From a virus, in the IMG/VR virus record IMGVR_UViG_3300007523_000008, positions 1 to 64,000 of that record: a stretch of 64,000 nt of DNA; one strand, written 5' to 3'. This document shows positions 9,894-45,870 of the stretch, piece after piece. Below the pieces are notes generated by a model. It searched no databases, had not been told where the DNA came from, and worked only from the letters and a program-made list of their open reading frames with translations. The position numbers were made by a program, and so were the translations under genes. Position 1 is the stretch's first letter. Each line of letters begins with the position of its first letter.

Positions 9894-9904
9894 GTGTTAA
9901 ATGA

Positions 9905-9912
9905 TATTTATA
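9905..9912 (-). promoter_or_regulatory. T4-type late promoter box (TATAAATA) for the homing endonuclease
   Basis: The minus strand reads TATATAAATATCATTTAACACATG, with TATAAATA ending 11 bases before the ATG at 9893. This is the canonical T4 late -10 sequence in sense orientation. Most genes here have the reverse complement instead. Confidence 0.5.
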
Positions 9913-9960
9913 TATAACACAGAAGTCAATATTTATTTAGTAGATTCAAATATTTTTGGA

Positions 9961-9990
9961 CAAAAAAAGGGTGGCCTTTTCGGGCCACCC
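9961..9990 (-). terminator. Rho-independent terminator after the major capsid gene
   Basis: On the minus strand: GGGTGGCC, loop CGAAAA, GGCCACCC, then TTTTTTT. It has an eight-base-pair perfect GC-rich stem with a seven-T tract, 40 nt past the capsid stop. It is the clearest terminator in the window. Confidence 0.93.
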
Positions 9991-10029
9991 ATTTTGATAT
10001 AAACGATTAGGATTATCTGGAGTCTACTA

Positions 10030-11637
10030 TTAGACCTTATCCAAATCACCGATGATGATTTTTCCATAAAATTCCGGACGAAGCATCTTCTTAGCGTAAC
10101 GGGTCATTACTCCGCGACGTGGTGTGAAGTTAACTGGGTCATACACTAGAGGTGTTTGAATCAATGGAATGTAAGGAGCGTAAACAGCGCCGGTCTCGAG
10201 GAAGTTATTTCCACGGAAACCTACGAGCATTACGTTGTCAGTCATGTATGGGTTCTTGTAAACGGTCCAGCGATTGGAGAGAGCTCCAACCTTGGCCACG
10301 CCCATTGCGAACTTAGCCTGGTCACCATCAGTGTTGGTGGAGAATCCAGGGATAGATTCGATGATTGTTGCGACGTCAGGCGAGCAAACCAAGAAGTTAG
10401 CTCCACCACGAAGGGTGAGCTGGTGAATCTTGTTGGACACCTTTTGAATCTTGTTACCAAGAGTTTGGAACCATGTGCTCTTCACGTAAGCCGTACGGTT
10501 AGTAGCGGTGTCGATGAAAGAACGGGAACCTACGTCGAATTCCTTACCGATAGCAGCCGACCAGTAGTCGGTTGTTACGGCAGGAGCTGCTGTTACCAAC
10601 ATGTCAAGGATTTCGAGGTCGATTTCCATGGAGACGTATTCGGACAGAAGTGCTGTCAATTCTGCTTCAGCGTCGATTGAGTGGTAAGCGTTCAAGTCTT
10701 GAGCCAATTCTGGGGTCCAGACGGCTTTCAACTTACGTGTCTTAGCAACGATTGCCTCAGACTTCAACTCTAGGTTGACTTCTGGGATACCGATGTCGGT
10801 GTTGAGACCGGACGATCCAGCACTAGCTGTTGTGCCAGTGTCTTCAAAGTCGCCACGTGATGTGTCGGCAGGTTGGTTGTGATGAGCAACTGTTCCTGTA
10901 GAAGCACCGGAGACGGAACCGGAAACAACGAATACTACGTTTGTTCCAGATACGGACGTGAAGGCTGGGAAGAAATCTACGATGCCGGAACCGCTGACGG
11001 TAAAGGCGCGAGCACCATTAGCATCGAACGATGTAGCTGACAAGTCAGCTGTGACAGTCCAGATTTTGTTAGCAGCAACCGAAGCGCTGAGGTTAACATC
11101 GAAGTTAACGTCTTCATTTGAACCTGTGGCCCATGTGAAGGTGACGCCTGTAGCGGTTTGGTCATTGATTGTGTAACCGAAACGACCTTGGCCGTAAAGA
11201 CCATTTGTAGCGGAATCCGTAGAACCGAGCTTTGTTCCAGTACCACCGAACAGGGACTGTCCGTTGAATGCTGGTTTACCGGCTTGTGCTGTACCGTACT
11301 TGAAGTCCAAGTAGAACACGAGACCAGATGGGAGATTCATTGGTTGAACCGAAACGAATTCCTTAGCTGCGATTTCTGCGAACACACGACGAACCAATGG
11401 GAGAGCAACGCCGGCCCATTGTTCGGAGTTCGATGTTGTACCTGTACGGGTAGCTTCATCGATAAGTTGCTTTGCTTGATTCTCTAAAAGAATCGCCATG
11501 TGCGACTTGTCCATATCGGACTTGACGCCCTCGAGCAGTCCAGTCTTTTCCCACTTATTGACAAGGCCGCGGGTTTGGGCCATGAGCTGAACCATTGGGT
11601 TCGCTGTCTCACTGAGTAGTGATTTAATATCTGACAT
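10030..11637 (-). CDS. 23: Major capsid protein (gp23-like)
   Basis: A 535-residue protein (T4 gp23 has 521), directly downstream of the scaffold and followed by a strong terminator. N-terminal features match gp23: residues ~25-55 have NKWEKTGLLEG and ILLENQAKQLIDE (T4: NKWKPLLEGEG and IFENQEKDF), then PLVRRVFAEIAAKEFVSVQPM (T4: GMVRRAIPNLIAFDICGVQPM) and NLPSGLVFYL. The chain carries a predicted gp21 cut after Glu61 (LIDE|A), which would remove a propeptide close in size to the 65 residues cut in T4. A Ser/Thr-rich insertion at residues ~135-275 may form a surface domain. The end (RRGVMTRYAKKMLRPEFYGKI) is typical of the family. An AAGGAAA ribosome site is 10 nt before the ATG. Confidence 0.93.
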   Translation of the reverse strand: MSDIKSLLSETANPMVQLMAQTRGLVNKWEKTGLLEGVKSDMDKSHMAILLENQAKQLIDEATRTGTTSNSEQWAGVALPLVRRVFAEIAAKEFVSVQPMNLPSGLVFYLDFKYGTAQAGKPAFNGQSLFGGTGTKLGSTDSATNGLYGQGRFGYTINDQTATGVTFTWATGSNEDVNFDVNLSASVAANKIWTVTADLSATSFDANGARAFTVSGSGIVDFFPAFTSVSGTNVVFVVSGSVSGASTGTVAHHNQPADTSRGDFEDTGTTASAGSSGLNTDIGIPEVNLELKSEAIVAKTRKLKAVWTPELAQDLNAYHSIDAEAELTALLSEYVSMEIDLEILDMLVTAAPAVTTDYWSAAIGKEFDVGSRSFIDTATNRTAYVKSTWFQTLGNKIQKVSNKIHQLTLRGGANFLVCSPDVATIIESIPGFSTNTDGDQAKFAMGVAKVGALSNRWTVYKNPYMTDNVMLVGFRGNNFLETGAVYAPYIPLIQTPLVYDPVNFTPRRGVMTRYAKKMLRPEFYGKIIIGDLDKV

Positions 11638-17077: not shown

Positions 17078-17707
17078 TTATCGGGTCTCAGATATAATAT
17101 CTCTGATGATGTTTTCGATGTTCAAATACTTGTCAATCGCTTGGCGGTTTCCTTCACCGAGTAATTTTTTTGAATGGTCGATTGATTCATTCAAATTCAT
17201 GTAAGCTCCGCGTGTTGATGGAGAGGATACTAAGTCAAAGCAGAGAAGCTCGAAATCGTCCTGAACCTCAACAGTGTTCTCTGCCATCTGACGAACCGAA
17301 CCGAGTCCTCTAGAAGAAATACCAAGTCGGACATTATTCTTAACCAATTCACGAGCAATGTTACCCGATGGAGTTGTAAGAATTTCAATTGTTCCTACAA
17401 CATCTTCTCCTTCCCAGTGACATTCGACGATGTTGTGCGATACATTTTTTAAATTGATAACTGACGAATCTGGGTGGTCAAGTTCACCGAGTGCACGCCG
17501 TTCTCTAATAATTTGTTGGTATTTTTCAACCTCGCGTTGGAGAATGTGTTTTGGGTACACACGTCCATTGTGATTCTTTTGACCAGCTTTTTGAAGAATG
17601 CCTTTTAAAGAAAAAACGCCGTTTGTAGACGTTTTTGCTTCGTTAATCATCTGTGGGGTGATTTCGAAGGGGATGAAATCTACCAAGAGTTGTCGTGTTT
17701 CGCTCAT
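17078..17707 (-). CDS. 21: Prohead maturation protease (gp21-like)
   Basis: A 209-residue protease (T4 gp21 has 212). Hallmarks in order: GQKNHNGRVYPKHIL at ~42-55 (T4: VVNRNKRLYPKRIL), GELDHP with the catalytic His at 78, a strand pair HNIVECHWEGEDVVGTIEIL, LGISSRGLGSV with the catalytic Ser at ~131, and DDFELLCFDLVSSPSTRGAYM with the acidic third residue. These fit the U9/S78-like fold. In T4 it cuts scaffold, core proteins and capsid protein after (I/L)xE inside the prohead. Its start overlaps the stop of the upstream gene (TAATG), so translation is probably coupled. It is the processing enzyme for the cleavage-like N-termini noted in this window. Confidence 0.9.
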   Translation of the reverse strand: MSETRQLLVDFIPFEITPQMINEAKTSTNGVFSLKGILQKAGQKNHNGRVYPKHILQREVEKYQQIIRERRALGELDHPDSSVINLKNVSHNIVECHWEGEDVVGTIEILTTPSGNIARELVKNNVRLGISSRGLGSVRQMAENTVEVQDDFELLCFDLVSSPSTRGAYMNLNESIDHSKKLLGEGNRQAIDKYLNIENIIRDIISETR

Positions 17708-19710: not shown

Positions 19711-22524
19711 TTACTCTGCTTTGTCATCCCCAAGGAGATTCGACTCATCCAGTATAGACTTTTTCTCAGTAATTACCTGTTTTTCTTTCTTACCAAACTT
19801 AATACCCAAAGTAGCTTTCAACCTCTTCAACTCTTCATCGAGGGATAGTGGAGAACCACCCCGGAAGGTATGTTTTAGTGGATTTGATGTAGTTTTTGCC
19901 TTATTTTCCATACTACCGAGGGGATCTTCCCCACGATTTTTAACCTGTCGGGTAGAATATTTTTCTTTGTTTCCCGTTTGGTCCCGGTCCTTATCTTCTT
20001 CAATTGGAGGCGCATCTTTTTCTTCAACGGTTTCTGTTAAATCCGGTAAACCAGCGCCAGCTTCTTCTGGTGGACTATCCGGCGGTGTTGCCGGTTCTAA
20101 GTCTGAACCGGTTGGTTCATCCACACCGACGTCTTCGATACCTCCGTCGGCATCAACGGCTTGATTGCTCTTCATTGGGTCATTGCCCTCTTCTTCAATC
20201 TGCTGCATTCTCCAAAAGGCTTTCTGGTCATCGATGACTTCACTCTGTATCTGTTCGACGTCAGTTTCCGACATATTAAAGACGTTGTGGTATACCCAAG
20301 CCCGACTAAATAATTTTGCCTCTATCATATCCTTAGATACATTCAATTTATCTTGCCAAATTGCAATCTTCTCCTGTTCAAAGATTGTAGAGGGATTTGT
20401 TAGTTCTAACGTAAAGTCAACCAAACTAGCATCTGTATATCCTTGAATATACAAGTGGACAACTGCTATCTTACTCAACTCCGAAACAATAATTCGTTGT
20501 AATCTAGCAATTGTACGAGAAAAGCGAACATCTTCCGCGGCGAGGGTAGCTTTGCCGGAAATGCCTTCTTCGTATCCCAAGAAAGCCTTCGGAATTTTGA
20601 GTGCAGCCATCATCTTGTTGCGGACATACTCAATATCTTCCGTGCCTGTAAATTCCATACCTGGAAGTGTATCGATTGAAGTTCCACTATCACCGCCACG
20701 GACTGGCAGATAGAAGTCCTCAACCATATTATTTAAGTTAAAGCGTAGATTGTAATCACCCGTTCTCTCGTCAAGATACGGAACCTTTTTAATTTGGTTC
20801 ATAATCTTCTGCATAAATCCGTCAATTTCATTTGGCGGAATATTTCCAACGTCAATCTTAAAGATACGTTTTTCAGGAGCACGCATGATGCGGTGAATCA
20901 ACATGGCATCTTCCATCAAACTTAACTGTTTCCACACACGACGAGCTCCCTCTAACATAGACTTTCCATACGGAAGAAAGTTACTATCTGAAATAAGTCT
21001 GAAGTGTGCGATTTCGAAATTTTCATATTCTGAGCCGCCACTCAGACCATCGTGCTGATACTTAACGTAATTGATATTTGTTGGGTCTGACCCTTCAATG
21101 CGGGTTATTTCGTAAGCACTAAGCGGCCTAACGGTATACACGCCATACTCAGGTGATAGCTCCAACTTGAGGAAAAAATCACCATATTTACAATTTTTTA
21201 CGAATACGCCACTATCATAGTTGACTGTCCCGTTTGAATTTTTTCCACATATAGGGAAATTGTGACGGTCAGTTTCACCATTCGGACCAACCACTGTCAT
21301 GCAATACATGTCGGCCGATTCGGAGATTGTTTCTATCGAAGAAACCTTATGATTGGTTAGACTTTTAACGGGTATTCTTTTGAACTTTCTGGTGTTTATA
21401 GAATTCCACTCTACCATGAAAACATCGTTTTTTTGAAGAGTTGAGACAATTTCATCTTTTGGAATGTTGGAATGGAAGTCAAATATCTCTGACAGTTTAG
21501 AGTTCCACTTCAACTTCATATTTTCTTGAGCTCGCTCTCTTCTAACCGGGTCATTCCACATTTCTTTCTTTCCATTTGACCTAATCGAATTATGCTTGGA
21601 GTGTAGTTGGGAATTGTTATATTTATCAAAATCTTTGTGGTGAATGACCTTACCAACATCCCCGGTTTTAATTCCGAGTTCTTTTGCAACAATTCGGTGC
21701 GAAAATTCATATCCGTCTACACTTGGGTCGTACACCGTCTCATATTTGTCGAGGGAATTTTTCGAACACTTTTCACTCAGTTTTCTATAAAATGGCATTA
21801 AACTGTCACCCAAGTTTAGTTGGTCGGCCCTCTTGTCGTGGCCGTCACGTAACAAAAATGGGTGTTCTGGTGCAGTTTCTACAAATCCACCATCATCAAA
21901 TGTTACCCTGGTCGTCGTATTTGACGTATAGTTTTTATCGCACCACGTCACCTTGCCCGGAACAACTTTGTTAGTTTTATCTTGAATGGAATGAACCCAC
22001 ACCTCTTCCCCGGACTTTACTTTATTAGATAGCTCCTCAATTGAAATATTCTCACCGTTTAGAAGCGGAATTACAGAATCATACTTTACTGGCATGTTCC
22101 GTGTCCACGACCAAAGATTAAACTCAATGTTCATAATGTCATAGAAAAGATTCTCCAGAATCTTCTTAATACTTTCATCCTTGGAATTGATGGTTAGAAC
22201 ATTGCCGAACTCAGAAGGGACCAAACATTCATCAGCGTAGATATCTAAAGCACTACTTAAAATTGGATCCATGTCCATAACATCATAATCACGAAACAGC
22301 TCCAATCGAGCTGATTGATATGACAACGACATGTCTCGGTTGTGTAGGTTGTAGGTCGAACTACGCAGCCGGTTGAACCTGTCTCTCAGACTGTTCTTGT
22401 CGGTAGCGTACTGAACCGCGTCGGTGTCGATTACTTTGAGTTTCTTGCCGCCAACATTACGAACGATAACATCCGTCGAAAACAGTTTCTTTAATCTTGT
22501 GAATAGGTCTTTTTGTTCTGCCAT
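19711..22524 (-). CDS. 20: Portal vertex protein (gp20-like) interrupted by an intein
   Basis: A 937-residue translation product; removal of the intein (residues 145-444) leaves about 637 residues, compared with 524 for T4 gp20. Extein features: TDVIVRNVGGKKLKVIDTD, LELFRDYDVMDMDPILSSALDIYADE, then NLWSWTRNM joined to CKYGDFFLKLELSPEYGV, FEIAHFRLISDSNFLPYGKS, MRAPEKRIFKIDVGNIPP, LPGMEFTGTEDIEYVRNKMMAALKIPKAFLGYEE. These are hallmark segments of T4-type portals. The portal is the dodecameric ring at the packaging vertex, docking terminase and later the neck. The C-terminal ~160 residues are an acidic Pro/Glu-rich extension ending in a basic helix. A motif of the ATATTTATA type lies about 30 nt upstream. 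Confidence 0.92.
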   Translation of the reverse strand: MAEQKDLFTRLKKLFSTDVIVRNVGGKKLKVIDTDAVQYATDKNSLRDRFNRLRSSTYNLHNRDMSLSYQSARLELFRDYDVMDMDPILSSALDIYADECLVPSEFGNVLTINSKDESIKKILENLFYDIMNIEFNLWSWTRNMPVKYDSVIPLLNGENISIEELSNKVKSGEEVWVHSIQDKTNKVVPGKVTWCDKNYTSNTTTRVTFDDGGFVETAPEHPFLLRDGHDKRADQLNLGDSLMPFYRKLSEKCSKNSLDKYETVYDPSVDGYEFSHRIVAKELGIKTGDVGKVIHHKDFDKYNNSQLHSKHNSIRSNGKKEMWNDPVRRERAQENMKLKWNSKLSEIFDFHSNIPKDEIVSTLQKNDVFMVEWNSINTRKFKRIPVKSLTNHKVSSIETISESADMYCMTVVGPNGETDRHNFPICGKNSNGTVNYDSGVFVKNCKYGDFFLKLELSPEYGVYTVRPLSAYEITRIEGSDPTNINYVKYQHDGLSGGSEYENFEIAHFRLISDSNFLPYGKSMLEGARRVWKQLSLMEDAMLIHRIMRAPEKRIFKIDVGNIPPNEIDGFMQKIMNQIKKVPYLDERTGDYNLRFNLNNMVEDFYLPVRGGDSGTSIDTLPGMEFTGTEDIEYVRNKMMAALKIPKAFLGYEEGISGKATLAAEDVRFSRTIARLQRIIVSELSKIAVVHLYIQGYTDASLVDFTLELTNPSTIFEQEKIAIWQDKLNVSKDMIEAKLFSRAWVYHNVFNMSETDVEQIQSEVIDDQKAFWRMQQIEEEGNDPMKSNQAVDADGGIEDVGVDEPTGSDLEPATPPDSPPEEAGAGLPDLTETVEEKDAPPIEEDKDRDQTGNKEKYSTRQVKNRGEDPLGSMENKAKTTSNPLKHTFRGGSPLSLDEELKRLKATLGIKFGKKEKQVITEKKSILDESNLLGDDKAE
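21193..22092 (-). mobile_element. Intein with HNH homing endonuclease in the portal gene
   Basis: A 300-residue in-frame insertion (portal residues 145-444) between RNM and CKYGDFF. Splicing blocks are visible: N-terminal PVKYDSVIPLLNG (block A-like), VTFDDGGFVETAPEHPFL (block B with the usual T/H-P), MYCMTVVGPNGETDRHNF (block F, with Cys at the position usually held by Asp) and DSGVFVKN before Cys+1 (block G). Between B and F lie HRIVAKELG, VIHHKDFDKYNN and NDPVRRERAQENM, an HNH-type nuclease with a DNA-binding helix. Residue 1 appears to be Pro and the penultimate residue Lys, not the usual Cys/Ser and His. Exact junctions are inferred from the extein. Confidence 0.85.
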
Positions 22525-22583: not shown

Positions 22584-24218
22584 TCAGAGGAGCCAACGCA
22601 AATCTTCTCTATTACGATCTGATGTGCCCATCTTCATTGTCCATGGGTCATTGGCGACCCCATATGGATTACTCTGTATAATTGCTGTACGTGTCTGCAC
22701 GCGTTGTGCCTCAGCGGCGGAGTTTGAACCAATCTTACCTAAGAGTATTTTGGTCACGTTATCTCTCTCTGTTCGTAATCTCAAGGCTACATCCCGAATC
22801 CACATAGCTATTCCAGCCGCCATAACTAAGTCGTCATTGTAACCACTCATGGCTTCAGCTCGGGAAGAAACTCCCACAGACTTCCAAATGAATACCTTCA
22901 ACTCATCAATTAATCTACTCGATCGTATAATAAATTCTTTATTTCGAATGTAACTTTCCAATTTAGAAATAACTAAAGGTCGTGTTTTTGAAGAAGTTGT
23001 AAACCCTGGTTTGAGTTTTTTCTCTTCGCTATTTATTTTATTGGTCATCTGACTTTCTGTATCAACGTACTGTAAATCAGCCGAACTGTAGAATAGATTT
23101 GGGTATAGTTTGTCTATAATTTCTTGAATAACCGCCCAACCGATGTTTGCGTTTTCAACAACAACTAGGCCCATATTATATTCTGTTCCGATTGCCATGA
23201 GTGACCGGGCATAGTCCTTCGTCGGCAATTTACCCTTGTATTCAGCAACCTGCTCCATTGATTCGATGTCTATAACCTGCGCTCCCGAAAAGTCAGACGC
23301 ATCACCACGACCTACGTCACCGACAATCATATATGATTTCCCATCTTCGGGGTACTTCCAAATCCAATAACCGTGGTCCGCACCCCGCATCTCAATTGGC
23401 GGAATTACGTAGTTTTCTGTGTACCAATCTAATATTCCAATTTCAACAACGGTATTACCAGACGTACTGAATTCGCAATCACATTCTTGAGCCGCACCAC
23501 GTTCACCAAGTAGTTTGGTTTGGTTATCTCTCCACGCTTGGTCACGATCTGGATGAAGGTACCATGGTAGATTTACACGAACAAACTTATTTCCGGGAGA
23601 TTCCATCCAAGTTTTGTGAAAGAAGTTACCCACACCATTTGGGGTCGATAATATAATAGCTTTACCACCGGTAGACAATGTAGACTGTGCCGACAACCAA
23701 ATAGCTTCTACTCCGTCGATGAACGCAGCCTCGTCAATGATGAGCAGAGATACTGCCGCTGAACGGCCGGAATTGCTAGCCGATGACACCGCCCTAATCT
23801 GCGAACCGTTTGTTAATCTCAAAGACAGTTGATTATTTGTTTCTTCTTTTACCTTTAACCATGAGGGCAAATTATCATTAGCAAAACGAACCTTTGTAAC
23901 AATTGCCTTGGAAGTTTCCTGAGTAATCGACAGACATAGAATTTCCTTGTCAGTGTGAAACGTCATTAACCACAACGAATATGCTGCAACTAGTGTTGAA
24001 ATGCCCATCTGACGAGACTTCAGAACGGCCGTCAGCGTATTTTTCTGAAACGTATTTAGAGCTTCATCTTGAAATTCATAAGTCAAGAGAGGCAACGTCC
24101 CACGAGTAGGGTGTTGAATTTTGACATACTTCTTCATGAAGTATATGGCGTCGGATGCACATTTAACGTACTCCGACCTCATTATGTCCCTAAGATTCTT
24201 TGTGGTTGTCTCAGCCAT
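22584..24218 (-). CDS. 17: Terminase large subunit (gp17-like)
   Basis: A 544-residue packaging motor from the ATG at 24218 (a TTG one codon upstream is possible). ATPase: LKSRQMGIST at ~66-75 is the Walker A variant of T4-type terminases (T4: SRQLGKT), and LLIIDEAAF at ~158-166 is Walker B plus the catalytic Glu. The coupling motif IILSTPNG follows. Nuclease: MIVGDVGRGDASDFS (first Asp ~301), VVVENANIG (~354) and GYNDDLVMA give the RNase-H-like acidic triad. It cuts concatemeric DNA and pumps it through the portal. It lies directly upstream of portal; T4 has gp18 and gp19 between them, absent here. Confidence 0.95.
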   Translation of the reverse strand: MAETTTKNLRDIMRSEYVKCASDAIYFMKKYVKIQHPTRGTLPLLTYEFQDEALNTFQKNTLTAVLKSRQMGISTLVAAYSLWLMTFHTDKEILCLSITQETSKAIVTKVRFANDNLPSWLKVKEETNNQLSLRLTNGSQIRAVSSASNSGRSAAVSLLIIDEAAFIDGVEAIWLSAQSTLSTGGKAIILSTPNGVGNFFHKTWMESPGNKFVRVNLPWYLHPDRDQAWRDNQTKLLGERGAAQECDCEFSTSGNTVVEIGILDWYTENYVIPPIEMRGADHGYWIWKYPEDGKSYMIVGDVGRGDASDFSGAQVIDIESMEQVAEYKGKLPTKDYARSLMAIGTEYNMGLVVVENANIGWAVIQEIIDKLYPNLFYSSADLQYVDTESQMTNKINSEEKKLKPGFTTSSKTRPLVISKLESYIRNKEFIIRSSRLIDELKVFIWKSVGVSSRAEAMSGYNDDLVMAAGIAMWIRDVALRLRTERDNVTKILLGKIGSNSAAEAQRVQTRTAIIQSNPYGVANDPWTMKMGTSDRNREDLRWLL

Positions 24219-24226
24219 CAAATACC

Positions 24227-24847
24227 TTAAGCCACAGATTTCAAGTCAGCATCAAGCTTTGCAATTTCTTTATCGAGCCGCCCGATTTCTTTTAGGCACT
24301 TGACGTGATCTTTTTTCAGCGATTTTAGCAATTCATCTCTACGGTTATCTTCCCACTCTTCAACCAGACCATTTGAATTCACAAATGTCAAAACATGTGT
24401 TTTCTTTGTATAATCCAATCCGTCCTTCACTTTGGCTTTAATGTCCATGATGTATGAGCGTTCGTTCTCATATAATTTTTTCTGCTCATAGACGGACCAT
24501 TTGCCTTTAATTCTAATTTGAGTTTCGTAGTCTGTAAGACAGTCGAGACACATGCCCGTTTTAACAAACATCTTTGAATCTTGCTTCGAGCCCCATTTGA
24601 TGTCTTTTTTACACGTGTTACACTTAACGTTGATTTCGGTGCTAATCATGTCCATCAGTGGAGTATGGCTGGCCTTTCCGTATTCTTTCTGTACCCATGA
24701 CTTACCTCGTGTGTCGGTCCATACCTCACCGACTTTCCGCTTAGTCATATCCTCAGTTTCTTTATAACCAACTTGTACAAATGGTCTGTCGCCAGCCTGA
24801 TAGGCCCGAACGATATCCATGTTTGATGTGTGTTTTCCGCGTTTCAT
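24227..24847 (-). CDS. Zinc-ribbon protein upstream of terminase
   Basis: A 206-residue protein ending 8 nt before the terminase start. Residues ~75-105 hold CNTCKKDIKW...CLDCLTDYE, a four-Cys zinc ribbon. The N-terminal part has EVWTDTRGKSWVQKEYG. The C-terminal 60 residues are a charged coiled coil (SLKKDHVKCLKEIGRLDKEIAKLDADL). Its place is that of the small terminase subunit (gp16) in T4, and a coiled coil fits an oligomer, but gp16 has no zinc ribbon. I therefore leave it unassigned. Confidence 0.75.
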   Translation of the reverse strand: MKRGKHTSNMDIVRAYQAGDRPFVQVGYKETEDMTKRKVGEVWTDTRGKSWVQKEYGKASHTPLMDMISTEINVKCNTCKKDIKWGSKQDSKMFVKTGMCLDCLTDYETQIRIKGKWSVYEQKKLYENERSYIMDIKAKVKDGLDYTKKTHVLTFVNSNGLVEEWEDNRRDELLKSLKKDHVKCLKEIGRLDKEIAKLDADLKSVA

Positions 24848-24912: not shown

Positions 24913-27792
24913 TTATATCGAGATACCCAATATTTTTTGAATAGGAGCTTTAATAGCATCAATCTCAGCTTGGCTAATTGCTTCTCCGGAAATTGCTTCG
25001 GTGAATCTTTCTATAGCCAACAGTTGAATTTTTCTAGGTAGATATTTCTTAGCATTTGCCAGCAGTCCGGTAAAACTTCTAAAATTTTTCAGCTCCTCTG
25101 ATGTGGGAGTTGTGTCAAACAGTATTTCAAAAGCTTTTTTCAAATCTGTGATTCTTTCTTGCCCTTCTTCTTTAGCTTCAACAAATCTATATGCGGGGTA
25201 CACCTTACCATCAACAGATACATTTTTTACAAACTTATATGCCGGTCGAAGCCCGGGCATTCCTCCTCCGGTATTAAGCGTGTATCTTGATGGAACCGAA
25301 TCTCCTTTATTCTTAGCAACAAAACTCAAAGGGATAACTGGAGAATCGCTTGGGTCATCCAATACCTTTTGAACCTTACTCGGCTTCAACACTAAAACAT
25401 TACCCAGGCTAGTTGCTGCTCTAGCCAACGATCTAAGGAATAATGCTCCAGCCATTCCTTTTATACCAACTTCCAAGTCTGAATATGGTGAGTCTTTTGT
25501 AAACTTTGTCCATTCCGAAGGTTTCTCATATCCAGCAGAATCTTGAGTCATATCATCGCCCTCGAAATCAACTTGTACGATTTGATGTTTTGGTTTATAG
25601 TAAAATAGTGTAATAACTTGGTCGGGAATAGAATTGAAACTCTTGGTTCTTCCAACATAATAAAAATTTGGAGTTATCATGGTTTTAGAAGTCAGAGTCC
25701 ATTGAATCTGATTATCATCTATACCATCCAAAAATGTTTTGAGTTCATCCAACTTCGTTTTCGGGATGATGATGTCGATATCACCAAACTCTTTTTTATA
25801 CTTACTGATAAAAGGCCTTGTCTCCGGATTCATAAGATGCTGTGAGCTTCCGTTGAAAATATAACCGTCGTCAATGTATGGATTATTGTCTTTCCAAAAT
25901 CTGACCTTTTTATTTAAGGCTTGGGCAAGAGATTTCACATCCTTGGAGACAGAGTTTGCGATGTCATTACCCGCGTCGTCAACTATTTTTAGTTTGGTCG
26001 TGGCTTGGGCTGGTCCTCCGTCAAAGGTTTTTGGTGTCTTCGAATCGACAGCAGCTACACTTTGACCTGACTCAAGTAATAGTGTGTTCCGAAAGACTAC
26101 TTCTATAAGTTCATTCACCAGTGATGCATATGGATTTGACTCTTTCAATTCCGGTTTATTTTTCATAAGCGTGTCCCATATTTCTTCTTTTTCAGATTGG
26201 CTTACCGGTGGTAGATATTTTAAAAATGATTCTTTGTCTCCGGTTTGTAAAAATTCTCGCATCCTGGTTCCACTGATATTCACCGTGGACGATCTCTCCA
26301 CACCAACTTTATTTATTTTCCCAGTCTTTAAAAGTTCTGGAAATTTATTCAAATCTTCATCTTTAAAATTAGCCTCCACATCATCCTTGTCCGAATAAAG
26401 ATTTACAGTTGGAACATTAGAACCATCCTTGGTGAGCGACTGTTCTAACCAGCCCAACTCATGAACAACGGATCGTACAGGTGAATCGACAAATTTTACT
26501 TTAACATTCTTTGGAAGATATGGGATGAAGATATCACTCCACAATTTGATAAAGTCCTCTCCCTTTATTGGAAACTGATTTCTCTCAATTCGACTCTTAG
26601 ATGTAGTATAGACTACAACCCGATCATTCTCTTTGGCGGCTCTCTCTATCAGTCTCCAGTGTCCAAGGTGTAATGGTTTTCCGGCGATTGGAATCAAACC
26701 AAGAGTCGTTGATTTTTCTCCAAGAAGGTTTTTCTTAGATACAACCAATCGCACCGTATCGTGAATGTCGTCTTTTATCTGACGAATATCCTTTTTTCCA
26801 TTCGCAATTTCTAACAGTATATCAAAAAACTTTTCGAGTCGAGCTTCATTTTTAACCACGTAAGAATTAACATCCGAAATAATATCCTCTTCTGATTTTC
26901 CCTCGACTCCAATCTGAGAAATAACCTTCTGGATTAAACTGCGTATTTGTTGATAGTAGTCAGTTGCAAGGTCGGGGTCTAATCTATACATAGATTTTTT
27001 AGCATCACGTGTCTCTGCGTCGTATTGGTCGGATTGAACTAGTTTGAAGAAGGTGCCATTGTCGAATTTTAAGACAACACCCTCGGTAACTCCACCCAAG
27101 GACGAAGGCACAGATAACATAGCTTCCGAAAATTTTGATATAACATCAATTGGATTATTCCAGTCTACATTTGTCAATTTCGAAGACACCAGTGGATTTT
27201 TCATCAAACTTTCCTTAGTCAGATTTCCATCATGGAAGACTGGAAATGACGCAATTTTCAAGGACTCAGCCATACTTTTTACTTTATCATAATCTGTAAT
27301 TTCGGTCTTTGCTTGCGTATGTAACGTTCCTTGAATAATTCGATAATCGACTGGACCATAACTTCGTAAAAACATACCACCCTTATTTTCATATGTTCTG
27401 GTAAGGGTATCTTTGTTTTGTGCAAATTCTATACTAAATTCTGTAGATAGTGGAATAGAATTTATTTTGTTGTTAATTTTTTTCAGATGATCAAAAATAA
27501 TGGAGTATTGGCCGATTCCAACTGAAGTTGTTGAGATGTCCGATTTCTCTTTGTCATTCAGGTGTGCGAATTCTTTTGCAGAAAGTATAGCTCCCTTGTA
27601 TGATACTATCCAATTCTTAGTATAGTCTGGGTCAGCTGCCCGATTTGTTCTAACCAAAGTAAGCTTTGTCCCATCCACCTTTTCGGTGATGACAACATGT
27701 TGGTGAATTATTTCGCTGGCTCGTTTTAGTCTCAAAGATTCTGTCTTTGGATCAAATATATAATTTTTTAAATTTTTAATGGAAATGTCCAT
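24913..27792 (-). CDS. Three-domain nucleotidyltransferase: ligase-like + HxGH + pol-beta-like
   Basis: A 959-residue protein with three different nucleotidyl-transfer folds. (1) Residues ~20-260 are an ATP-grasp-free RNA/DNA ligase-type domain: TEKVDGTK (Lys38 as AMP acceptor, motif I), FSIEFA (~119-123, motif III-like), TEGVVLKF (236-243, motif IV) and FFKLVQ (248-253, motif V). (2) Residues ~360-545 are an HxGH nucleotidylyltransferase: GKPLHLGHW (His375, His378), RVVVYTTSKS, ISGTRMREFL (506-515) and YLPP, the pattern of NMN- or pantetheine-phosphate adenylyltransferases. (3) Residues ~625-790 are a pol-beta/MNT-type domain: IFNGSSQ (Gly648-Ser649), FGDIDIIIP (Asp671, Asp673) and VQVDFEG (Asp742). 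All key residues are present. The substrate is unknown; RNA repair or NAD-linked chemistry are possibilities. It lies upstream of the terminase genes. Confidence 0.8.
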   Translation of the reverse strand: MDISIKNLKNYIFDPKTESLRLKRASEIIHQHVVITEKVDGTKLTLVRTNRAADPDYTKNWIVSYKGAILSAKEFAHLNDKEKSDISTTSVGIGQYSIIFDHLKKINNKINSIPLSTEFSIEFAQNKDTLTRTYENKGGMFLRSYGPVDYRIIQGTLHTQAKTEITDYDKVKSMAESLKIASFPVFHDGNLTKESLMKNPLVSSKLTNVDWNNPIDVISKFSEAMLSVPSSLGGVTEGVVLKFDNGTFFKLVQSDQYDAETRDAKKSMYRLDPDLATDYYQQIRSLIQKVISQIGVEGKSEEDIISDVNSYVVKNEARLEKFFDILLEIANGKKDIRQIKDDIHDTVRLVVSKKNLLGEKSTTLGLIPIAGKPLHLGHWRLIERAAKENDRVVVYTTSKSRIERNQFPIKGEDFIKLWSDIFIPYLPKNVKVKFVDSPVRSVVHELGWLEQSLTKDGSNVPTVNLYSDKDDVEANFKDEDLNKFPELLKTGKINKVGVERSSTVNISGTRMREFLQTGDKESFLKYLPPVSQSEKEEIWDTLMKNKPELKESNPYASLVNELIEVVFRNTLLLESGQSVAAVDSKTPKTFDGGPAQATTKLKIVDDAGNDIANSVSKDVKSLAQALNKKVRFWKDNNPYIDDGYIFNGSSQHLMNPETRPFISKYKKEFGDIDIIIPKTKLDELKTFLDGIDDNQIQWTLTSKTMITPNFYYVGRTKSFNSIPDQVITLFYYKPKHQIVQVDFEGDDMTQDSAGYEKPSEWTKFTKDSPYSDLEVGIKGMAGALFLRSLARAATSLGNVLVLKPSKVQKVLDDPSDSPVIPLSFVAKNKGDSVPSRYTLNTGGGMPGLRPAYKFVKNVSVDGKVYPAYRFVEAKEEGQERITDLKKAFEILFDTTPTSEELKNFRSFTGLLANAKKYLPRKIQLLAIERFTEAISGEAISQAEIDAIKAPIQKILGISI

Positions 27793-27819: not shown

Positions 27820-28365
27820 TTAACACGACGAATCTTGGTATGCTGGGGCACTTCCGCCGTTTGGCGGATCGCTATCCAACGCACAAGATGATTGACCCCA
27901 GTAAGCATCATTACCACCATAATAATCGATGGCTGAGTCTGAACCACCGATGCACTTTGTCCAAATCATATAAATTGTGCCGCCAGAGTCGTAGTACAAA
28001 TCCCAATAGTGACATGCTGGTGCAGGAGTTGGTGTTGGTGTTGGTGTCGGCGTCGGTTGCCCGGTTGGAAATGGTGTTGCGGTAGGTAACGGTGTAGATG
28101 TTGGTGCTGGTGTTGGGGTTAGTGTTGGTGCTGGTGTTGCTGTCGGCGGAGTATACCCAGAAGACCGGAACAAATATCTCAAGTCTGTTCCATCAGCATA
28201 ATAATTCGTGTCATAATCTATCTGATCTCCTCCCGCGGTTTTTTCCCAAGAGTTTGATACATCGGTGCCACCAATCTTAAACCCCACATCCGCACGCTTT
28301 GCTGATGTCCTAGTAACAAATATAGCTGCTAAATTAGAACCGGCAACTTTGTATTCATTAGCCAT
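27820..28365 (-). CDS. Fibre-tip-like protein with Thr-Pro linker
   Basis: A 181-residue protein whose start overlaps the end of the giant fibre gene by 8 nt; AGAGGAAAA gives a good ribosome site. Residues ~1-70 form a compact domain ([34 protein letters not shown]). Residues ~72-118 are a Thr/Pro/Ala linker ([10 protein letters not shown]). The last ~60 hold four Cys in a Tyr/Trp/Gly-rich domain ([21 protein letters not shown], then two more Cys), which may be disulphide- or metal-stabilised. Position right after the fibre suggests a tip adhesin or fibre-associated protein. Function is inferred. Confidence 0.75.
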
Positions 28366-31300
28366 TTATTTTCCTCTTTAATTCATCGACTTCAGCAGAA
28401 AGCTCTTTTACAGCTTCAATGAGAACAGCGACGATGCGGCTATATTGTAGACTTGTCACTTCATTTTTTTCATTCTTGGAAACTAACTGTGGAAATACCT
28501 CAATAACTTCTTCAGCGATGAGACCGATATCATTAAGTTTCGATTTATCTTTTCTATCGTACGTGACCCCACGTAGTTTTTTAATTGAAGTTAGTGAATT
28601 TTTTAAAGTACGTACATTCTCTTTTATTCTAATCGTGGAATACGTATCGTAACCACCAGCCATCACGGTAATTAGTTGGTCGAATTCTGCAAATCTAGCT
28701 CCCGCTGGTGGATTTTCATTTCCCTCGATGAAGAATCTAAGTCTTCCATCAGAATATACATCCATTGCCCACAGACCGGTGATTCCGGAAGGCATTTGCA
28801 TGAATAGCTGTCCACCCTCAGAAGAATTTGGGTCTCTGAGGAATGATGTGGCGTGGTCAAGGGTGGCTCCCTTCAAAGCTCCTGTGATACTAAGATTAGT
28901 TCCGTCCCACGTCATCTTATTTCCGCCACTGTTGCCTATGGAGAACTTGGGAGTGCCACTAACATCACCTAGCCAAAATCCTGTTCCCGTGTCGTATGCG
29001 GTCTGACCAGACCTTACATGCCCACCACTCGTGATATCAATTGCTGTTCCAGTAATGGTTCCTCCGGACATACCAGAACTATTAATTGTACCAGCATTAA
29101 TCGTGGCAGCATTCAATGCTAAGGCCACATTAATGGTCCCAGCATTAATCTTAGATGCGTCAATATTACGAATATAGGCTTGGTCCATATAGACGCCAGA
29201 GCCATCAACTGTAAACGGTGAGGTGAGTTGTCCACCCGACACATTTACTATTTGGAATTTGTCAACTTGAACGATGAAAGCTGATCCTCCACCACCACCT
29301 CCAACATTGGTCAATCTAAATCCAGCGACCCGATTTCCAGCCGTGACATTCAATACGTATTCAGCTGCCACGGAATTGTTGAGATTTGTTACAGTGGTGG
29401 AAAGAGTTGAAACCGAAGCTGACGTCGTGCCGTTAGCAGATGATACCGTCGCAATCGATGAGGCTGCTGATTGTGAATTGGTCGTGACGGTGCTGGACAA
29501 CGTTGAGACTGTTCCAGAGAGTGAGCCCACGCTGGAATTAATCGTATCCATCCTACTGGCGGCACTCGATGAATTATTAGTTACCGTTGTAGAAGTGGAT
29601 CCAATAGATGAACTAAAAGAGGAAGAGGCCGTTTGATATGAACTATTTAATGTTGTTACTCTCGCGGCCAAGGACGATGAGTTAGTTGTTATTGTTGAAG
29701 ACAATGTTCCAACCGAAGCATTTAACGATGCTGATGTTGTGAGGTATGAACTACTCAACGCCGTCGTAATAACCGCAGCTGATGCTGAGTTAGTTGTTAT
29801 TGTTGAAGACAATGTTCCAACTGAGGAATTCAGTGATGCTGATGCTGCTAAGTATGAACTACTCAGAGTTGACACCCTCAGTGCGATAGAGGATGAATTA
29901 TTCGTGATGGTTGTTGTGAGCGAACCAATAGAGGAACTGTACGATGAGGATGCGGTTCGATATGAGCTATCCAATGAGGCGACTCTCACTGCTATAGACG
30001 ATGAGTTAGTCGTAACCGTGCTGTCTAGATTATTGATGGATGAGTTGAGAGAGGACGATGCTGCTAAGTATGAACTGCTCAGCCCAGAAACTCGCAACGC
30101 AATTGACGCAGAGTTATTGGTTATGGTTGTTGTGAGCGAGCCAATGGAGGAGCTGTACGATGAGGATGCGGTTTGATACGAACTGTTAAGAGCAGACGTT
30201 ATGAGGGCGGCTGATGATGAGTTTGTGGAAACGGTCGCGTCCAGACCCACAATTGATGAGTTTGTAGAAGAAATCGAATTTGAGACAGATGAGCTCAAGC
30301 TTGTAACGCGAGCGGCCATCGACGATGAGTTGCTACTGATAGACGTGGTTAGGGTTCCAATAGAAGAACTATATGACGATGATGCGGTCTGATATGAACT
30401 ATTGAGTGTAGACGTCAGAACAGCCGCCGATGAGGAATTGGTTGAGACCGTCGATGATAACGACGATACTGAAGCGTTCGTTGTTGTAAATGAGTTGGAA
30501 ATTGATGAGCTGAGCGACGTGACTCTTAAAGCAATCGATGATGAGTTATTCGTAATTGTCGTAGAGAGAGTTCCAATTGACGAACTAAATGAGGATGATG
30601 CAGTTTGGTATGAACTGTTGAGACTGGTAGCCACAATGGCCGCTGAGGAAGAATTTGACGTAACTGTGCTGGACAAGGTATCCACTGAAGCTGATGTATT
30701 TGTAAATCGGCTGTTTAAGTTGGATGTGACCGCGGCAGCGGACTGAGAATTTGTCGTTACTGCGGTCGATAAGGTTCCAACGGTAGAACCGAATGAAGAG
30801 GATACCCCTTGTAATGAACTGCTTAGCGTAGTTACTCTTAGAGCAACCGATGCTGAATTGGTCGAAATCGTGGTAGATAGTGTACCAATTGAAGAACTAT
30901 AAGACGATGAAGCATTCTGATATGACGTGTTCAGCGAAGAAACCACAGCTGCGGCCGATGATGAATTGCTTGAAATCGAAGTTGTCAGAGAACCTACCGA
31001 CGAACTAAATGAAGAGGACGCTTCTCGATACGATGTACTCAACGTAGATGTAACCAAGGCCGCTGATTGAGAATTGTTTGTGATTGTCGTGGACAGTGTA
31101 CCAATCGAAGAACTTAGCGAAGATGACGCGGCTTGATAAGAACTATTTAAATCAGCCGTTACTAACGCTGCTGATTGCGAGTTCGTATTAACAGTTGCTG
31201 AGACAGTCTTTATCGACGAGCTTAATGAGGCAGAAGTTGCCAGAAACGAACTATTGAGGTTAGCGGTTACTAAAGCCGCCGATTGCGAATTTGTCGTGAC

Positions 31301-34300
31301 CGTGGTAGATAGTGATGAAATTGATGCGTTTGATAACGACAGCGATCCGGATAATGACGAACTCAAATTCGTTATAACCAATGCCACTGATTGAGAATTG
31401 TTTGTAACCGTTGACGACAACGCACTCACGGATGAATTAAGTGAAGACGATGCTGCCTGATACGAACTATTTAGCGTAGAAACAACTGCCGCAACCGACG
31501 AAGAGTTATTGGTGATGGTGGTGGCCAGATTTCCGATTGAAGCCGTCAGAGAGGATGATACAGTAGTCACGCGACTGCTTAGTGTATCAGACACGACCGC
31601 TGCTGATGCGGAGTTAGTTGAAATAGTTGACGTTAGATTTCCAACAGAAGAATTCAACGAAGACGATGCTGATAGATAGGAGCTACTCAAAGTACTGAGT
31701 CTGGACGCAATCGATGAAGAGTTATTAGTGGCAGTAGTTGTTATAGTTCCTATTGAAGAACTAAATGAAGATGAAGCGGTTCGGTACGAACTATCCAACG
31801 AAGCTACGACCAATGCGGCTGAAGATGAGTTTGTCGTGACCGTCGAAGAAAGATTTGTAACAGAAGCGTTGGTAGTTGTAAATGAATTTGCTACCGATGA
31901 ACTTAAACTTGTAACACGGGTTGCTATAGATGATGAGTTACTTGTGGCCGTAGTTGTAAGTGTACCAATTGATGAGCTAAATGAAGACGATGCGGTTTGG
32001 TATGAAGAATTCAAACTCGTTACAACCAAGGCGGCTGACGATGAATTGTTTGTAACAGATGTTGTTAGTGAACCAACTGATGAACTGAATGAAGACGATG
32101 CGGTTTGGTATGACGAATTTAAATTGGAGATTTGAATCGCCGCGGACTGTGAGTTCGTAGTTATTGTTGTGCTTAAATCTCCAATCGATGAGCTATATGA
32201 TGAAGATGCATTTTGGTACGAACTGTTCAACGTTGACAATCGGAGTGCTAGCGAAGAAGAATTCGTACTAACGGTTGTTGTCAGAGTACCAACTGATGAA
32301 TTTATTGAAGAAGATTGTGTTTGAAAGGCACTATCTAAAGACGAAACCTGTGCAGCTATAGACGACGAGTTTGTTGTAATCGTTGTAGAAAGAGAACCAA
32401 TCGATGAACTATACGACGCTGACGAGTTCTGATAGGAACTATTTAGGTTAGTTACAACTGCTGCTATAGAAGATGAGTTAGAAGTAACTGTAGAAGAAAC
32501 ATTAGAAATCGAAGAACTTAACGACTGTGTAGCGTTCTGGAGGGATGTATTTAAATTAGAAGCAACCGTGGCGGCTGATTGAGAGTTTGTGGTTATCGTT
32601 GAGGATAAATCTACTACAGAAGCACTGAGTGAAGATGAGGCTGCTAGATAAGAACTGTTTAAATTTGAAACAACTCCGGCCGCCGACTGTGAGTTAGTTG
32701 TTATTGTCGTGCTTAGAGTTTCAACCGACGCACTTAGTGAAGCTGATGTTGTCTGATAAGTTGAACTTAGTGTTGAAAGGTTAAGAGCCACCGAGGCTGA
32801 GTTGGTTGTGATTGTGGTGGATAGATTACCGATTGACGAACTGTATGAGGCTGACGCGACTTGGTACGAGCTGTCGAGGGTGGAGACCACCGCTGATATA
32901 GACGCGGAATTGTTAGTCGCGGTCGTACTCAAAGTTTTTATCGAAGAGCTCAATGACGCAGATGTATTTAGATATGAACTGTTTAACGCTGTCGAAACTG
33001 AGGCTGCGGATGCCGAGTTTGTAGACACCGTGACAGATAGATTCTGTATAGAAGAACTCAGTGAGGCTGAAGCCTGGCGGTATGAGCTGTCCAATGTTGT
33101 TACAACTAACGCGATGGATGCGGAATTATTATTCTGCGTTGTAGATAATGATCCGATTGACGAGCTGTATGAAGCTGATGAGTTGACATACGACGAGCTC
33201 AGTCCAGCAAACTTTAGGGCAATGGATGAAGAAAATGTAGTTGTAGTCTGCGATACATCCGTGACTGACGCCGCCAGAGACGATGAATTGGTTGTGACTC
33301 TTGACGATAGAGATGTTAGGTCTGTTGCTGACGACGCTGAGTTGTCTGATACGACACCCGTCAAATCAAAAATTAGGGTTTCGATAGACCCAGAAAATCC
33401 ACTGTATGATGCTGAATACACAGCTATAGAAGCGGCGAGTGAGGCTGATTGCGCGGTGAAAACGACCTGTTGGTCTTGTATCGTGGAAATGACGGAGGAA
33501 GAGACTTGTATGGTTGTAGCTTCTAACGACGTCATCGTTGAGGCTAACGATTGAGAGTTGCTCGTCAACAGAGCGTTTGTTGTGACAATCGATGCTGAGT
33601 TTTCATTGTAGCTGGAGCTTAAAATTGAAATACTCTGCGTGGCTGCTGTCATCGCCTGTGCGAACGATGACGAATTGTTATCAATCGACACGTTTGATAG
33701 GTTTATCGACGTATCGAGAGACGCCAGAGAAGCTGAGGTGTCGCTTATTGTGAATGACAAAGATGAAGAAACCAACGTTAAGTGAGAATCTATCACAGCC
33801 GAAGATGCACTCAGCGACGATGATACAACTGATAATGTAGTTAGTATCGACGACGATACCGTATTAAGAGAAGAAGTTACATCCCCTATGGAAGAATTTA
33901 AAGAAGTTGTTGTCGATTCTAGTGACTGAGAAACAGTCGTCAGAGTTGTATTGAGAACATCCGTCGTCGCGCTCATGGACTGTGACACAGCAGATAAATC
34001 TAGAACTGCCGACGCAGAAACTATCGACAGAGATGAGCTGACAGTACTGAGTGTTGAGCTCAGCGACGATGATACTCCAGATAATTCGGAGTTGAGAGAA
34101 CTTGATACAATTCCCAACGATGTATCTACGACAGCTATCGATGCGCTCAACGACGAAGATGCTGCGTCAATGGCTGAGTTTAGAGATTGTGTTGCTAAAT
34201 TTAGAGCGTCGTCAACCTGTCCGAAAGTAGTACTAACAGATGACGATACTAATCCTAATGCAGTGTTCAGAGAAGATGAGGCCTCTCTAAGCCCGGTATC

Positions 34301-45817: not shown

Positions 45818-45870
45818 AAATATAAACAAGACTGCAAAATGCGCCGTCTAATCGAATTTTAATTAAATCC

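Follow-up and report, generated by a model that had tools for sequence, protein, structure and literature searches.

What does a phage gain from a single protein with three kinds of nucleotidyltransferase domain, and why does its gene lie among the genes for the phage head? We examined these questions for a 64,000-nucleotide stretch of viral DNA (the window; positions 1 to 64,000 of IMG/VR record IMGVR_UViG_3300007523_000008). An earlier note, made from the sequence alone, had recognized the motifs of three nucleotidyltransferase folds in one open reading frame at 24913-27792.

A fused gene in the head region of a T4-like phage

The genes that matter for our argument are:

10030..11637, minus strand: T4 gp23-like major capsid protein (Pfam Gp23, E = 1.7e-78)
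17078..17707, minus strand: T4 gp21-type prohead core protease (Pfam Peptidase_S77, PF03420, E = 2.6e-25)
19711..22524, minus strand: T4-like portal protein (gp20) with an intein (Pfam Portal_T4, E = 6e-67)
22584..24221, minus strand: terminase large subunit, gp17-like (phrog_2, E = 2e-41; order kept in relatives)
24227..24847, minus strand: small conserved ORF between the terminase and the fused gene
24913..27792, minus strand: triple nucleotidyltransferase gene, 959 amino acids, ORF with an ATG start

The fused gene is exactly where the earlier note had placed it, and it is on the minus strand; the plus-strand reading of these positions has stops throughout. The phage encodes a gp23-like major capsid protein, so we consider it T4-like. 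It is a freshwater phage. The intein occupies residues 153-413 of the portal protein (Pfam Intein_splicing, E = 1.6e-12).

The 959-residue protein has full-length relatives at 54-70% identity (tblastn), and its location next to packaging genes, which the earlier note had pointed out, is conserved in them: the neighbourhood of head and packaging genes, with terminase and portal and ending in gp21, is kept. We checked 19 relatives, and the small ORF adjoins the fused gene in 18 of them; the remaining locus, L045, stops within the fused gene. The protease gene is 7 kb from the fused gene, and an S77 protease is present in 13 of the 14 records that carry the family (the window's record and 12 of the 13 others). 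We predict that the gp21-type protease is the processing enzyme of the 959-residue protein.

There are no tRNA genes in the window or in the five flanking regions that we scanned, and we saw no Pnkp-type end-healing enzyme. A PADLOC scan for known defence proteins gave only a chance match to Cas11b (E = 0.027). The T4 late promoter TATAAATA is absent upstream of the fused gene. The sequence TATTTATA is repeated before several minus-strand genes of this phage; a copy with one mismatch precedes the fused gene.

Three nucleotidyltransferase domains

The protein is a true fusion of three distinct types of nucleotidyltransferase. An AlphaFold2 model built from an alignment of 39 sequences (mean pLDDT 86.8) shows the three domains that the earlier note had proposed: an Rnl2-like RNA ligase, a PPAT/NMNAT-like adenylyl/cytidylyltransferase of the HxGH type, and a domain of the pol-beta type. 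(This model replaced a run with 9 close sequences, which had a pLDDT of 52 and was unusable.) All of the motifs quoted in the note are present, their columns are conserved over the 39 relatives, and the three-type fusion is found in more than 20 related phage contigs. The parts of the protein are:

Residues 1-350 (26743..27792, minus strand): Rnl2-like ATP-dependent RNA ligase domain (Pfam, Foldseek, invariant residues)
Residues 360-546 (26155..26715, minus strand): HxGH (HIGH superfamily) adenylyl/cytidylyltransferase domain (PDB profile, Foldseek, phrog_395)
Residues 549-576 (26065..26148, minus strand): disordered linker (pLDDT < 50)
Residues 572-575 (26068..26079, minus strand): candidate prohead-protease site LLE/S (L/I-x-E) at the junction of the ligase-HxGH and pol-beta parts
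Residues 575-959 (24916..26070, minus strand): pol-beta-type nucleotidyltransferase with a helical C-terminal part (motifs, BFVD, phrog_19290)

The ligase domain resembles solved RNA ligases by fold; its sequence similarity to them is almost nil. In Foldseek, T4 Rnl2 was the best PDB match (2hvr, E = 6.8e-9; 1s68, E = 4.6e-6), with Naegleria RNA ligase also matched. Pfam RNA_ligase (PF09414) matches residues 32-250 (E = 3.1e-6, 27.9 bits versus a cut-off of 27). The motifs are EKVDGTK, TEFSIEFA, TEGVVLKF, and FFKLVQ. K38, D40, G41, E237, G238, and K250 are invariant across 19 sequences, and E122 is conserved in at least 90%. We predict that the lysine K38, within EKVDGTK, accepts the AMP. The note's statement that each catalytic set is intact needs qualification, however: motif V has only its first lysine, K250. 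(The usual KxK is KLV here and KxQ or KxV in relatives.) Because the second lysine is missing, we make a weaker claim for a standard ligase. The domain shares the fold, KxDG, EG, and the first lysine of motif V with T4 Rnl2 and Rnl1, but it lacks the second lysine and is fused to two other transferases. Its substrate may be RNA. In PHROGs, the ligase half belongs to phrog_27149, which is annotated as "unknown function."

The HxGH domain has HLGHW at 375-379 (HLGH at 375-378) and ISGTRMREFL at 506-515 (SGTRMR at 507-512). Its matches in a PDB profile search include NMNAT (9x6f, E = 2.6e-8) and PPAT (3nd5, E = 3.5e-6); Foldseek finds PPAT, NMNAT, and ATP sulfurylase, all with E of about 4e-4. 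Pfam's HxGH families match only at or below their cut-offs, and the domain belongs to phrog_395, "cytidyltransferase" (E = 1.7e-5). With this part alone as the query, tblastn against phages gave no match. The catalytic set is intact in the 959-residue protein and is kept in the fused lineage, but it is degenerate in most stand-alone relatives, which have T/N-x-x-H and ISATKVI without the arginine. So its intactness here does not reflect a universal constraint, and the degeneracy counts against a universal catalytic role.

The pol-beta domain has FNGSSQ (646-651), FGDIDIIIP (669-677), and VQVDFE (739-744). Among 20 diverse homologs, GS, GDxD, and QxDFE are invariant or nearly so. This part has no PDB profile match and no Pfam match, and the Foldseek list for the whole model is dominated by the other two domains. 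In BFVD, it matches the homolog from Campylobacter phage IBB35 (E = 2.9e-24, TM 0.84 on the target), and in PHROGs, this half belongs to phrog_19290 (E = 5e-28), again of "unknown function." A genome-contig scan with the pol-beta alignment found no bacterial or prophage relatives.

A known phage pol-beta transferase, RlaP (PF10127), partners an ATP-grasp RNA ligase (PMC7824862). The concept of pol-beta plus RNA ligase is the same. However, hmmscan found no match to PF10127 in our protein or in the window's record, PF10127 is absent from most relatives, and the spacing from GS to DxD is long here. One relative of 297 kb encodes a separate true RlaP in addition.

Most close relatives (1300 amino acids) have four domains, with the extra one lying between HxGH and pol-beta; in the alignment, it is inserted at linker 549-576. 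The extra domain is probably a second pol-beta domain. In hhalign, GS, GDID, QxD, and G(I/L)KG align with the C-terminal pol-beta domain, although with E = 0.025 and a probability of only 2%; the two domains are probably paralogs. The earlier account missed this fourth domain, as well as the separate co-occurring genes and the capsid-targeting and prohead-protease signatures described below.

The same parts as separate genes

No named phage family seems to cover the combination of ligase, HxGH, and pol-beta, as the note had supposed, but the combination is not unique to the 959-residue protein, because cultured phages of Campylobacter and Vibrio encode the same parts separately, in genes that strictly co-occur. 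Among 50,697 records, the ligase-HxGH and pol-beta genes are found in exactly the same 21 (for phage IBB_35, the two genes are on two contigs of one genome). A match to ligase-HxGH or to HxGH was present in all 13 records checked.

Members of phrog_27149, such as gp026 of Campylobacter phage CPt10 and Vibrio phage Va1_166, have the ligase followed by HxGH, as in our protein, and are 27-30% identical to it. Unlike our protein, they are encoded by a separate gene of about 500 codons, their HxGH set is degenerate, and they lack the pol-beta domain. Similarly, gp103 of CPt10 (phrog_19290) shares the GS...GDID...QxDFE domain and the helical tail (the IBB_35 homolog, AEF56792.1, is about 32% identical to our pol-beta part), but it stands alone, 65 kb from the ligase gene, and has a short propeptide ending in ILE/GGN.

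The distantly related cyanophage cytidylyltransferase T4-GC190 (phrog_395/3041) also has the HxGH domain. It was detected in S-SM1 virions by mass spectrometry and was listed as a structural protein (PMC3037559). Its N-terminus resembles a capsid-targeting sequence (MKSFSQFLTE/T in the P-SSM2 member and MKKFSAFLTE/A in the S-RIM2 homolog). Its recognisable kinship with our protein is confined to the HxGH domain, and we saw no pol-beta domain in it. Upstream of the cytidyltransferase, cyanophages have a gene with KWDG (Pfam DUF6267) that we considered as a possible ligase homolog, but this was unsupported (hhalign E = 0.2).

Candidate signatures of capsid targeting and prohead processing

Known T4 targeting sequences are N-terminal, and we find MKTYQEFIAE/A at the N-terminus of T4 internal proteins. 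The prohead protease gp21 cuts after L/I-X-E, and a capsid-targeting sequence alone is enough for a foreign enzyme to be taken up by the head and later delivered to the host (PMC9026906).

Such motifs recur in this family. Among 12 stand-alone pol-beta homologs, 5 begin with Met-GGN and the other 7 have an extension that ends exactly with [LI]xE/GGN; none begins otherwise. The stand-alone ligase homologs number 19, and in 16 of them [LI]xE[ASGT] occurs in an N-terminal extension; shuffling gave an expectation of 0.78 and a maximum of 5 in 2000 shuffles. In the fused proteins, [LI]xE[GAS] occurs in 1-3 copies, nearly always at module junctions, and the junction site is common to all 7 representative fused lineages. 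(L/I-x-E is short and would turn up by chance at about 1% of positions, and the homologs in this comparison share ancestry.) These N-terminal sequences make it well supported that the relatives' proteins are packaged. On the other hand, the Vibrio and Xanthomonas homologs and some metagenomic ones start with Met-GGN and have no propeptide, so packaging is not universal. The Stenotrophomonas homologs also lack a propeptide.

In the 959-residue protein itself, pLDDT falls below 50 only at residues 549-576 and in two short loops, so that the linker is the sole long disordered stretch. It ends with LLLE/SGQ, which fits the motif for the T4 prohead protease. The protein has no N-terminal targeting propeptide of 10-20 residues (it starts directly with the ligase core, as MDISIKN), and its sole candidate cut site is internal. 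We infer that it is packaged and cut. The capsid-targeting and prohead-protease signatures go beyond the mere location near packaging genes in suggesting that the product is virion cargo.

Proposed function and alternatives

We propose that the 959-residue protein is a late-made, head-packaged, protease-matured polyprotein for RNA-end repair in a T4-like phage; we put the chance that this is right at about even. The protein would be incorporated in the prohead core, and the gp21-type protease would cleave it after E574 (LLLE/SGQ) into a ligase-HxGH enzyme and a free pol-beta enzyme, much as the separate-gene homologs would lose their short capsid-targeting propeptides. Both freed enzymes would then pass into the host together with the DNA. 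There, the pol-beta domain would put back nucleotides that RNA ends have lost; once adenylated on K38, the ligase would join 5'-phosphate and 3'-OH ends; and the HxGH domain might make or process an adenylylated intermediate or the RNA terminus. (Of all these steps, the part given to HxGH is the most conjectural.) From the first minute of infection, the injected set would thereby work against anticodon nucleases and other defences that cut RNA. The gene for a CCA-adding enzyme near the two separate genes of Vibrio phages speaks for this proposal. The absence of tRNA genes from the window, the missing Pnkp-type enzyme, and the single lysine of motif V count against it.

T4's internal proteins and Alt, which are capsid-targeted, processed by gp21, and injected, likewise have L/I-x-E sites, and the separate-gene homologs have similar N-terminal propeptides. 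But the T4 cargo is a restriction inhibitor or an ADP-ribosyltransferase, instead of a set of RNA ligase and transferases, and here the site is internal. Polyvalent proteins (PMC5512222) also join several enzymatic domains in one polypeptide and are meant for the newly infected cell; the part of their description considered here reports no RNA ligase among them, and our protein, we infer, is processed by the prohead protease.

It is also conceivable, though rather unlikely, that this is an unpackaged enzyme that, like T4 Rnl1 and Pnkp, is produced during infection and repairs RNA in the cytoplasm, and that the junction has its LxE only by chance, within a flexible linker. This would account for the homologs without a propeptide, for the absence of an N-terminal targeting sequence from the 959-residue protein, and for the Vibrio phages, whose ligase-HxGH and pol-beta genes sit among non-structural genes with a gene for a CCA-adding enzyme 3-7 kb away. 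It does not fit with the cleavage motifs in the extensions of the stand-alone pol-beta and ligase homologs, the retention of the junction site in all fused lineages, the conserved location beside terminase, portal, and gp21, or the detection of the cyanophage cousin in virions (PMC3037559). We find it less likely still that the protein is a virion or DNA-acting factor that works on phage DNA ends (by nick sealing, protection, or tagging) while DNA is packaged or once it has entered the host, or that it consists of enzymes turned structural. The gene does lie among terminase, portal, and head genes, Rnl2-type folds seal duplex nicks, the cyanophage cousin's listing is as a structural protein, and some catalytic residues are degenerate in relatives. 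However, the solved structures that match by fold are RNA ligases rather than DNA ligases, and the catalytic residues of the ligase and pol-beta domains are near-invariant across very divergent sequences, which counts against a purely structural role.

Among the functions named in the earlier note, RNA-end repair fares best, and we found nothing that points specifically to NAD rebuilding. In that account, HxGH would be an NMNAT that rebuilds NAD after a host defence depletes it, with the ligase and pol-beta domains as accessories. NMNAT is the best solved-structure match of the HxGH profile, and phage NadR, NadM, and NadV pathways are known (PMC9503650). But the domain matches PPAT, glycerol-3-phosphate cytidylyltransferase, and ATP sulfurylase about equally well, and HxGH is degenerate in many co-occurring relatives, whereas the ligase lysine and the pol-beta acids are invariant. 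A role in NAD metabolism also gives no reason for the ligase and pol-beta partners, and we consider it very unlikely.

Implications

Phage RNA-repair sets, such as T4 Pnkp and Rnl1 or RlaP with RNA ligases, are regarded as being made inside the infected cell, and the host's RNA-cutting defence may act before they are made. An injected repair set would work at time zero. More broadly, we suggest, with a confidence just short of even, that the heads of T4-like phages come loaded with an RNA-repair complex matured by the protease and made up of an RNA ligase, an HxGH transferase, and one or two transferases of the pol-beta type. RNA cut by host defences would then be mended ahead of any phage gene expression.

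Our proposal offers a testable function for two PHROG families that are annotated as unknown (phrog_27149 and phrog_19290), and packaging would give a reason for the presence of a cyanophage "cytidyltransferase" in virions. L/I-x-E before a conserved mature N-terminus could serve as a simple signature for finding other injected enzymes of T4-like phages. If the proposal is correct, then the T4 internal-protein idea of injected anti-restriction would extend from protecting DNA to mending RNA, and capsid-delivered counter-defence by RNA repair would span freshwater phages, Campylobacter phages, and possibly the phages of marine cyanobacteria.

A fusion of three transferase modules

The gene at 24913-27792 (minus strand) is a real reading frame of 959 codons, and its product contains every motif that the earlier note had named. 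Motifs, profiles and the predicted fold confirm that one chain joins three distinct types of transferase: a ligase (residues 1-350), an HxGH transferase (360-546), and, judging from its motifs, a pol-beta-type transferase (575-959). In Pfam, RNA_ligase was barely above the cut-off (E = 3e-6), HxGH families matched only weakly, and the C-terminal part had no match. In PHROGs, residues 2-403 belong to phrog_27149 and residues 627-945 to phrog_19290, both families of unknown function, with matches to cytidyltransferase families in between. Profile searches related the HxGH domain to NMNAT (2.6e-8) and PPAT (3.5e-6). The C-terminal domain, for which these searches matched no solved structure, is assigned to the pol-beta type by its motifs: GS, GDxD, and QxDFE are nearly invariant across 20 very divergent sequences. 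The ligase lacks the second lysine of motif V.

The structure was predicted from an alignment of 39 sequences, including distant separate-gene homologs. The mean pLDDT was 86.8, and the only long low-confidence stretch was residues 549-576. Foldseek against the PDB recovered an Rnl2-like ligase fold and an NMNAT/PPAT-group fold: T4 RNA ligase 2 was the top hit (6.8e-9), followed by a Naegleria RNA ligase and then the NMNAT/PPAT/ATP-sulfurylase group. The C-terminal domain matched the predicted structure of a homolog from a Campylobacter phage, with a TM of 0.84 over the target.

Close relatives were found at 22 IMG/VR loci, plus a few from a second scan. They are typically ~1300 amino acids long because ~340 additional residues are inserted at window residue 576. 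This insert, which has its own GS...GDID...QVD set, probably represents an additional pol-beta domain. It is missing from the window protein, from L048 (981 amino acids), and from L012 (1044 amino acids). In L012 (2028-5159), an in-frame deletion took out most of the extra domain, so it can be removed cleanly. L084, a 297-kb relative of the window phage, encodes a true RlaP (PF10127, E = 3e-17) separately from its four-domain fusion. We also considered that the window protein might be an RlaP, but it does not belong to that family.

The modules are separate genes in other phages

Outside the window lineage, the modules are individual genes. In the phage collection, 21 records of Campylobacter and Vibrio phages carry a ligase-HxGH gene; a pol-beta gene occurs in those same phages and in Xanthomonas phage X1. 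The two genes are 1.3 kb apart in the Vibrio phages (which encode a CCA-adding enzyme a few kilobases upstream of the pair) and 65 kb apart in the Campylobacter phages. X1 and Stenotrophomonas phage Moby have four consecutive genes: one for pol-beta, an unknown gene, one for a probable ligase with KxDG and EG motifs, and one for an HxGH transferase. The unknown gene (9011-10015 in X1 locus L050; 2300-3244 in Moby locus L052) may be a further component of the system; by eye, it has a possible D...xK nuclease-like pattern. All 13 records tested had a ligase-HxGH or HxGH match. That the modules co-occur in some phages and are fused in others is good evidence that they act together.

Capsid-targeting and protease-site signatures

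The T4 prohead protease gp21 cleaves after L/I-X-E, and the N-terminal propeptides that it removes from internal proteins (10-20 residues) are capsid-targeting sequences; such a sequence alone is enough to bring a foreign enzyme into the head and from there into the host (PMC9026906; PMC5694885). T4 ipII and ipIII begin with MKTYQEFIAE|A, where the bar marks the cut point. Among stand-alone ligase-HxGH proteins, 16 of 19 have [LI]xE[ASGT] at most 14 residues ahead of the conserved core, versus a mean of 0.78 and a maximum of 5 in 2000 trials with shuffled extensions, although the sequences are related and the counts are not fully independent. (One of the 16, from locus L058, is doubtful, with its site close to the start codon.) Many of these N-termini resemble T4's: MNFETYLSE|S, MKLRDFINE|S, MKKYSDLIFE|A. 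Of 12 stand-alone pol-beta proteins from IMG/VR, five start with Met-GGN and seven have an extension ending in [LI]xE directly at GGN, such as MKSFNQFITENKILNE|GGN; none of the 12 starts otherwise.

Several homologs have no propeptide, and an N-terminal targeting sequence is absent from the window protein. Fused proteins (950-1300 residues) contain the motif 1-3 times, nearly always at module junctions. Its overall frequency is not above chance; what is unusual is where it is placed. The window protein's candidate site, LLLE|SGQ, lies inside the disordered linker, and in two fused lineages LLDE|GGW and ILNE|GGW lie where the extra domain begins.

T4-like cyanophage "cytidyltransferases" also matched in fold and family searches. 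The P-SSM2 protein begins with MKSFSQFLTE|T and the S-RIM2 member with MKKFSAFLTE|A. The P-SSM2 gene is assigned to orthologue group T4-GC190, which was found in purified S-SM1 virions by mass spectrometry (PMC3037559). These proteins share only the HxGH domain with the window protein, so this supports the principle that virions do contain a targeted HxGH enzyme, not the whole architecture. Adjoining DUF6267 proteins (L135 4208-5104 and L137 2026-2604, both cyanophage loci) have KWDG and EGFV...YKLVDR, which recall ligase motifs, a resemblance that was not borne out by profile comparison (E = 0.2).

Other features in the window are:
17078-17707: prohead protease (E = 2.6e-25)
19711-22524, minus strand: T4-like portal protein, with an intein at about 21286-22068 (Pfam Intein_splicing, E = 1.6e-12)
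28358-34618, minus strand: probable fibre protein (2086 amino acids) with dozens of degenerate SSS-rich repeats
8309-9694, 13095-14741, 44987-45829, 47617-48378: probable free-standing homing-type endonucleases among structural genes
Upstream of starts 7114, 8257, 16144, 19663, 22524, 36225, 44963, 55130, 57960, minus strand: TATTTATA element

The protease gene is also present in 12 of 13 other records. Wherever the contig extends far enough, the order is the same: fused gene, terminase, portal, protease. The portal intein has HNH-like residues, and portal regions are longer or shorter in several relatives, which suggests variable intein content. The probable endonuclease at 13095-14741 (DUF7487) is on the opposite strand. 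TATTTATA is repeated 3-35 bases ahead of many minus-strand structural genes and is possibly the late promoter, a variant of T4's TATAAATA.

Proposed role

With the architecture, linkage, signatures, and protease established, we propose that the window protein is most likely a polyprotein that would be made late and transported in the phage head; the prohead protease would cut it, and after injection into the host its ligase and pol-beta modules would mend RNA ends severed by host defence. Our literature search, with partial coverage, found no description of a capsid-targeted RNA ligase. Least certain is what the HxGH domain does: by attaching a nucleotide to a 5'-phosphate, its chemistry could yield adenylylated ends or a cofactor, and its HxGH residues are intact in some lineages only. 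The pairing of ligase and pol-beta fits the known logic of RNA-repair systems, in which pol-beta transferases are predicted to replace lost nucleotides ahead of ligation (PMC7824862). The window protein would work like a phage RNA-repair set and, going by the targeting and cut-site signatures, also like the T4 internal proteins.
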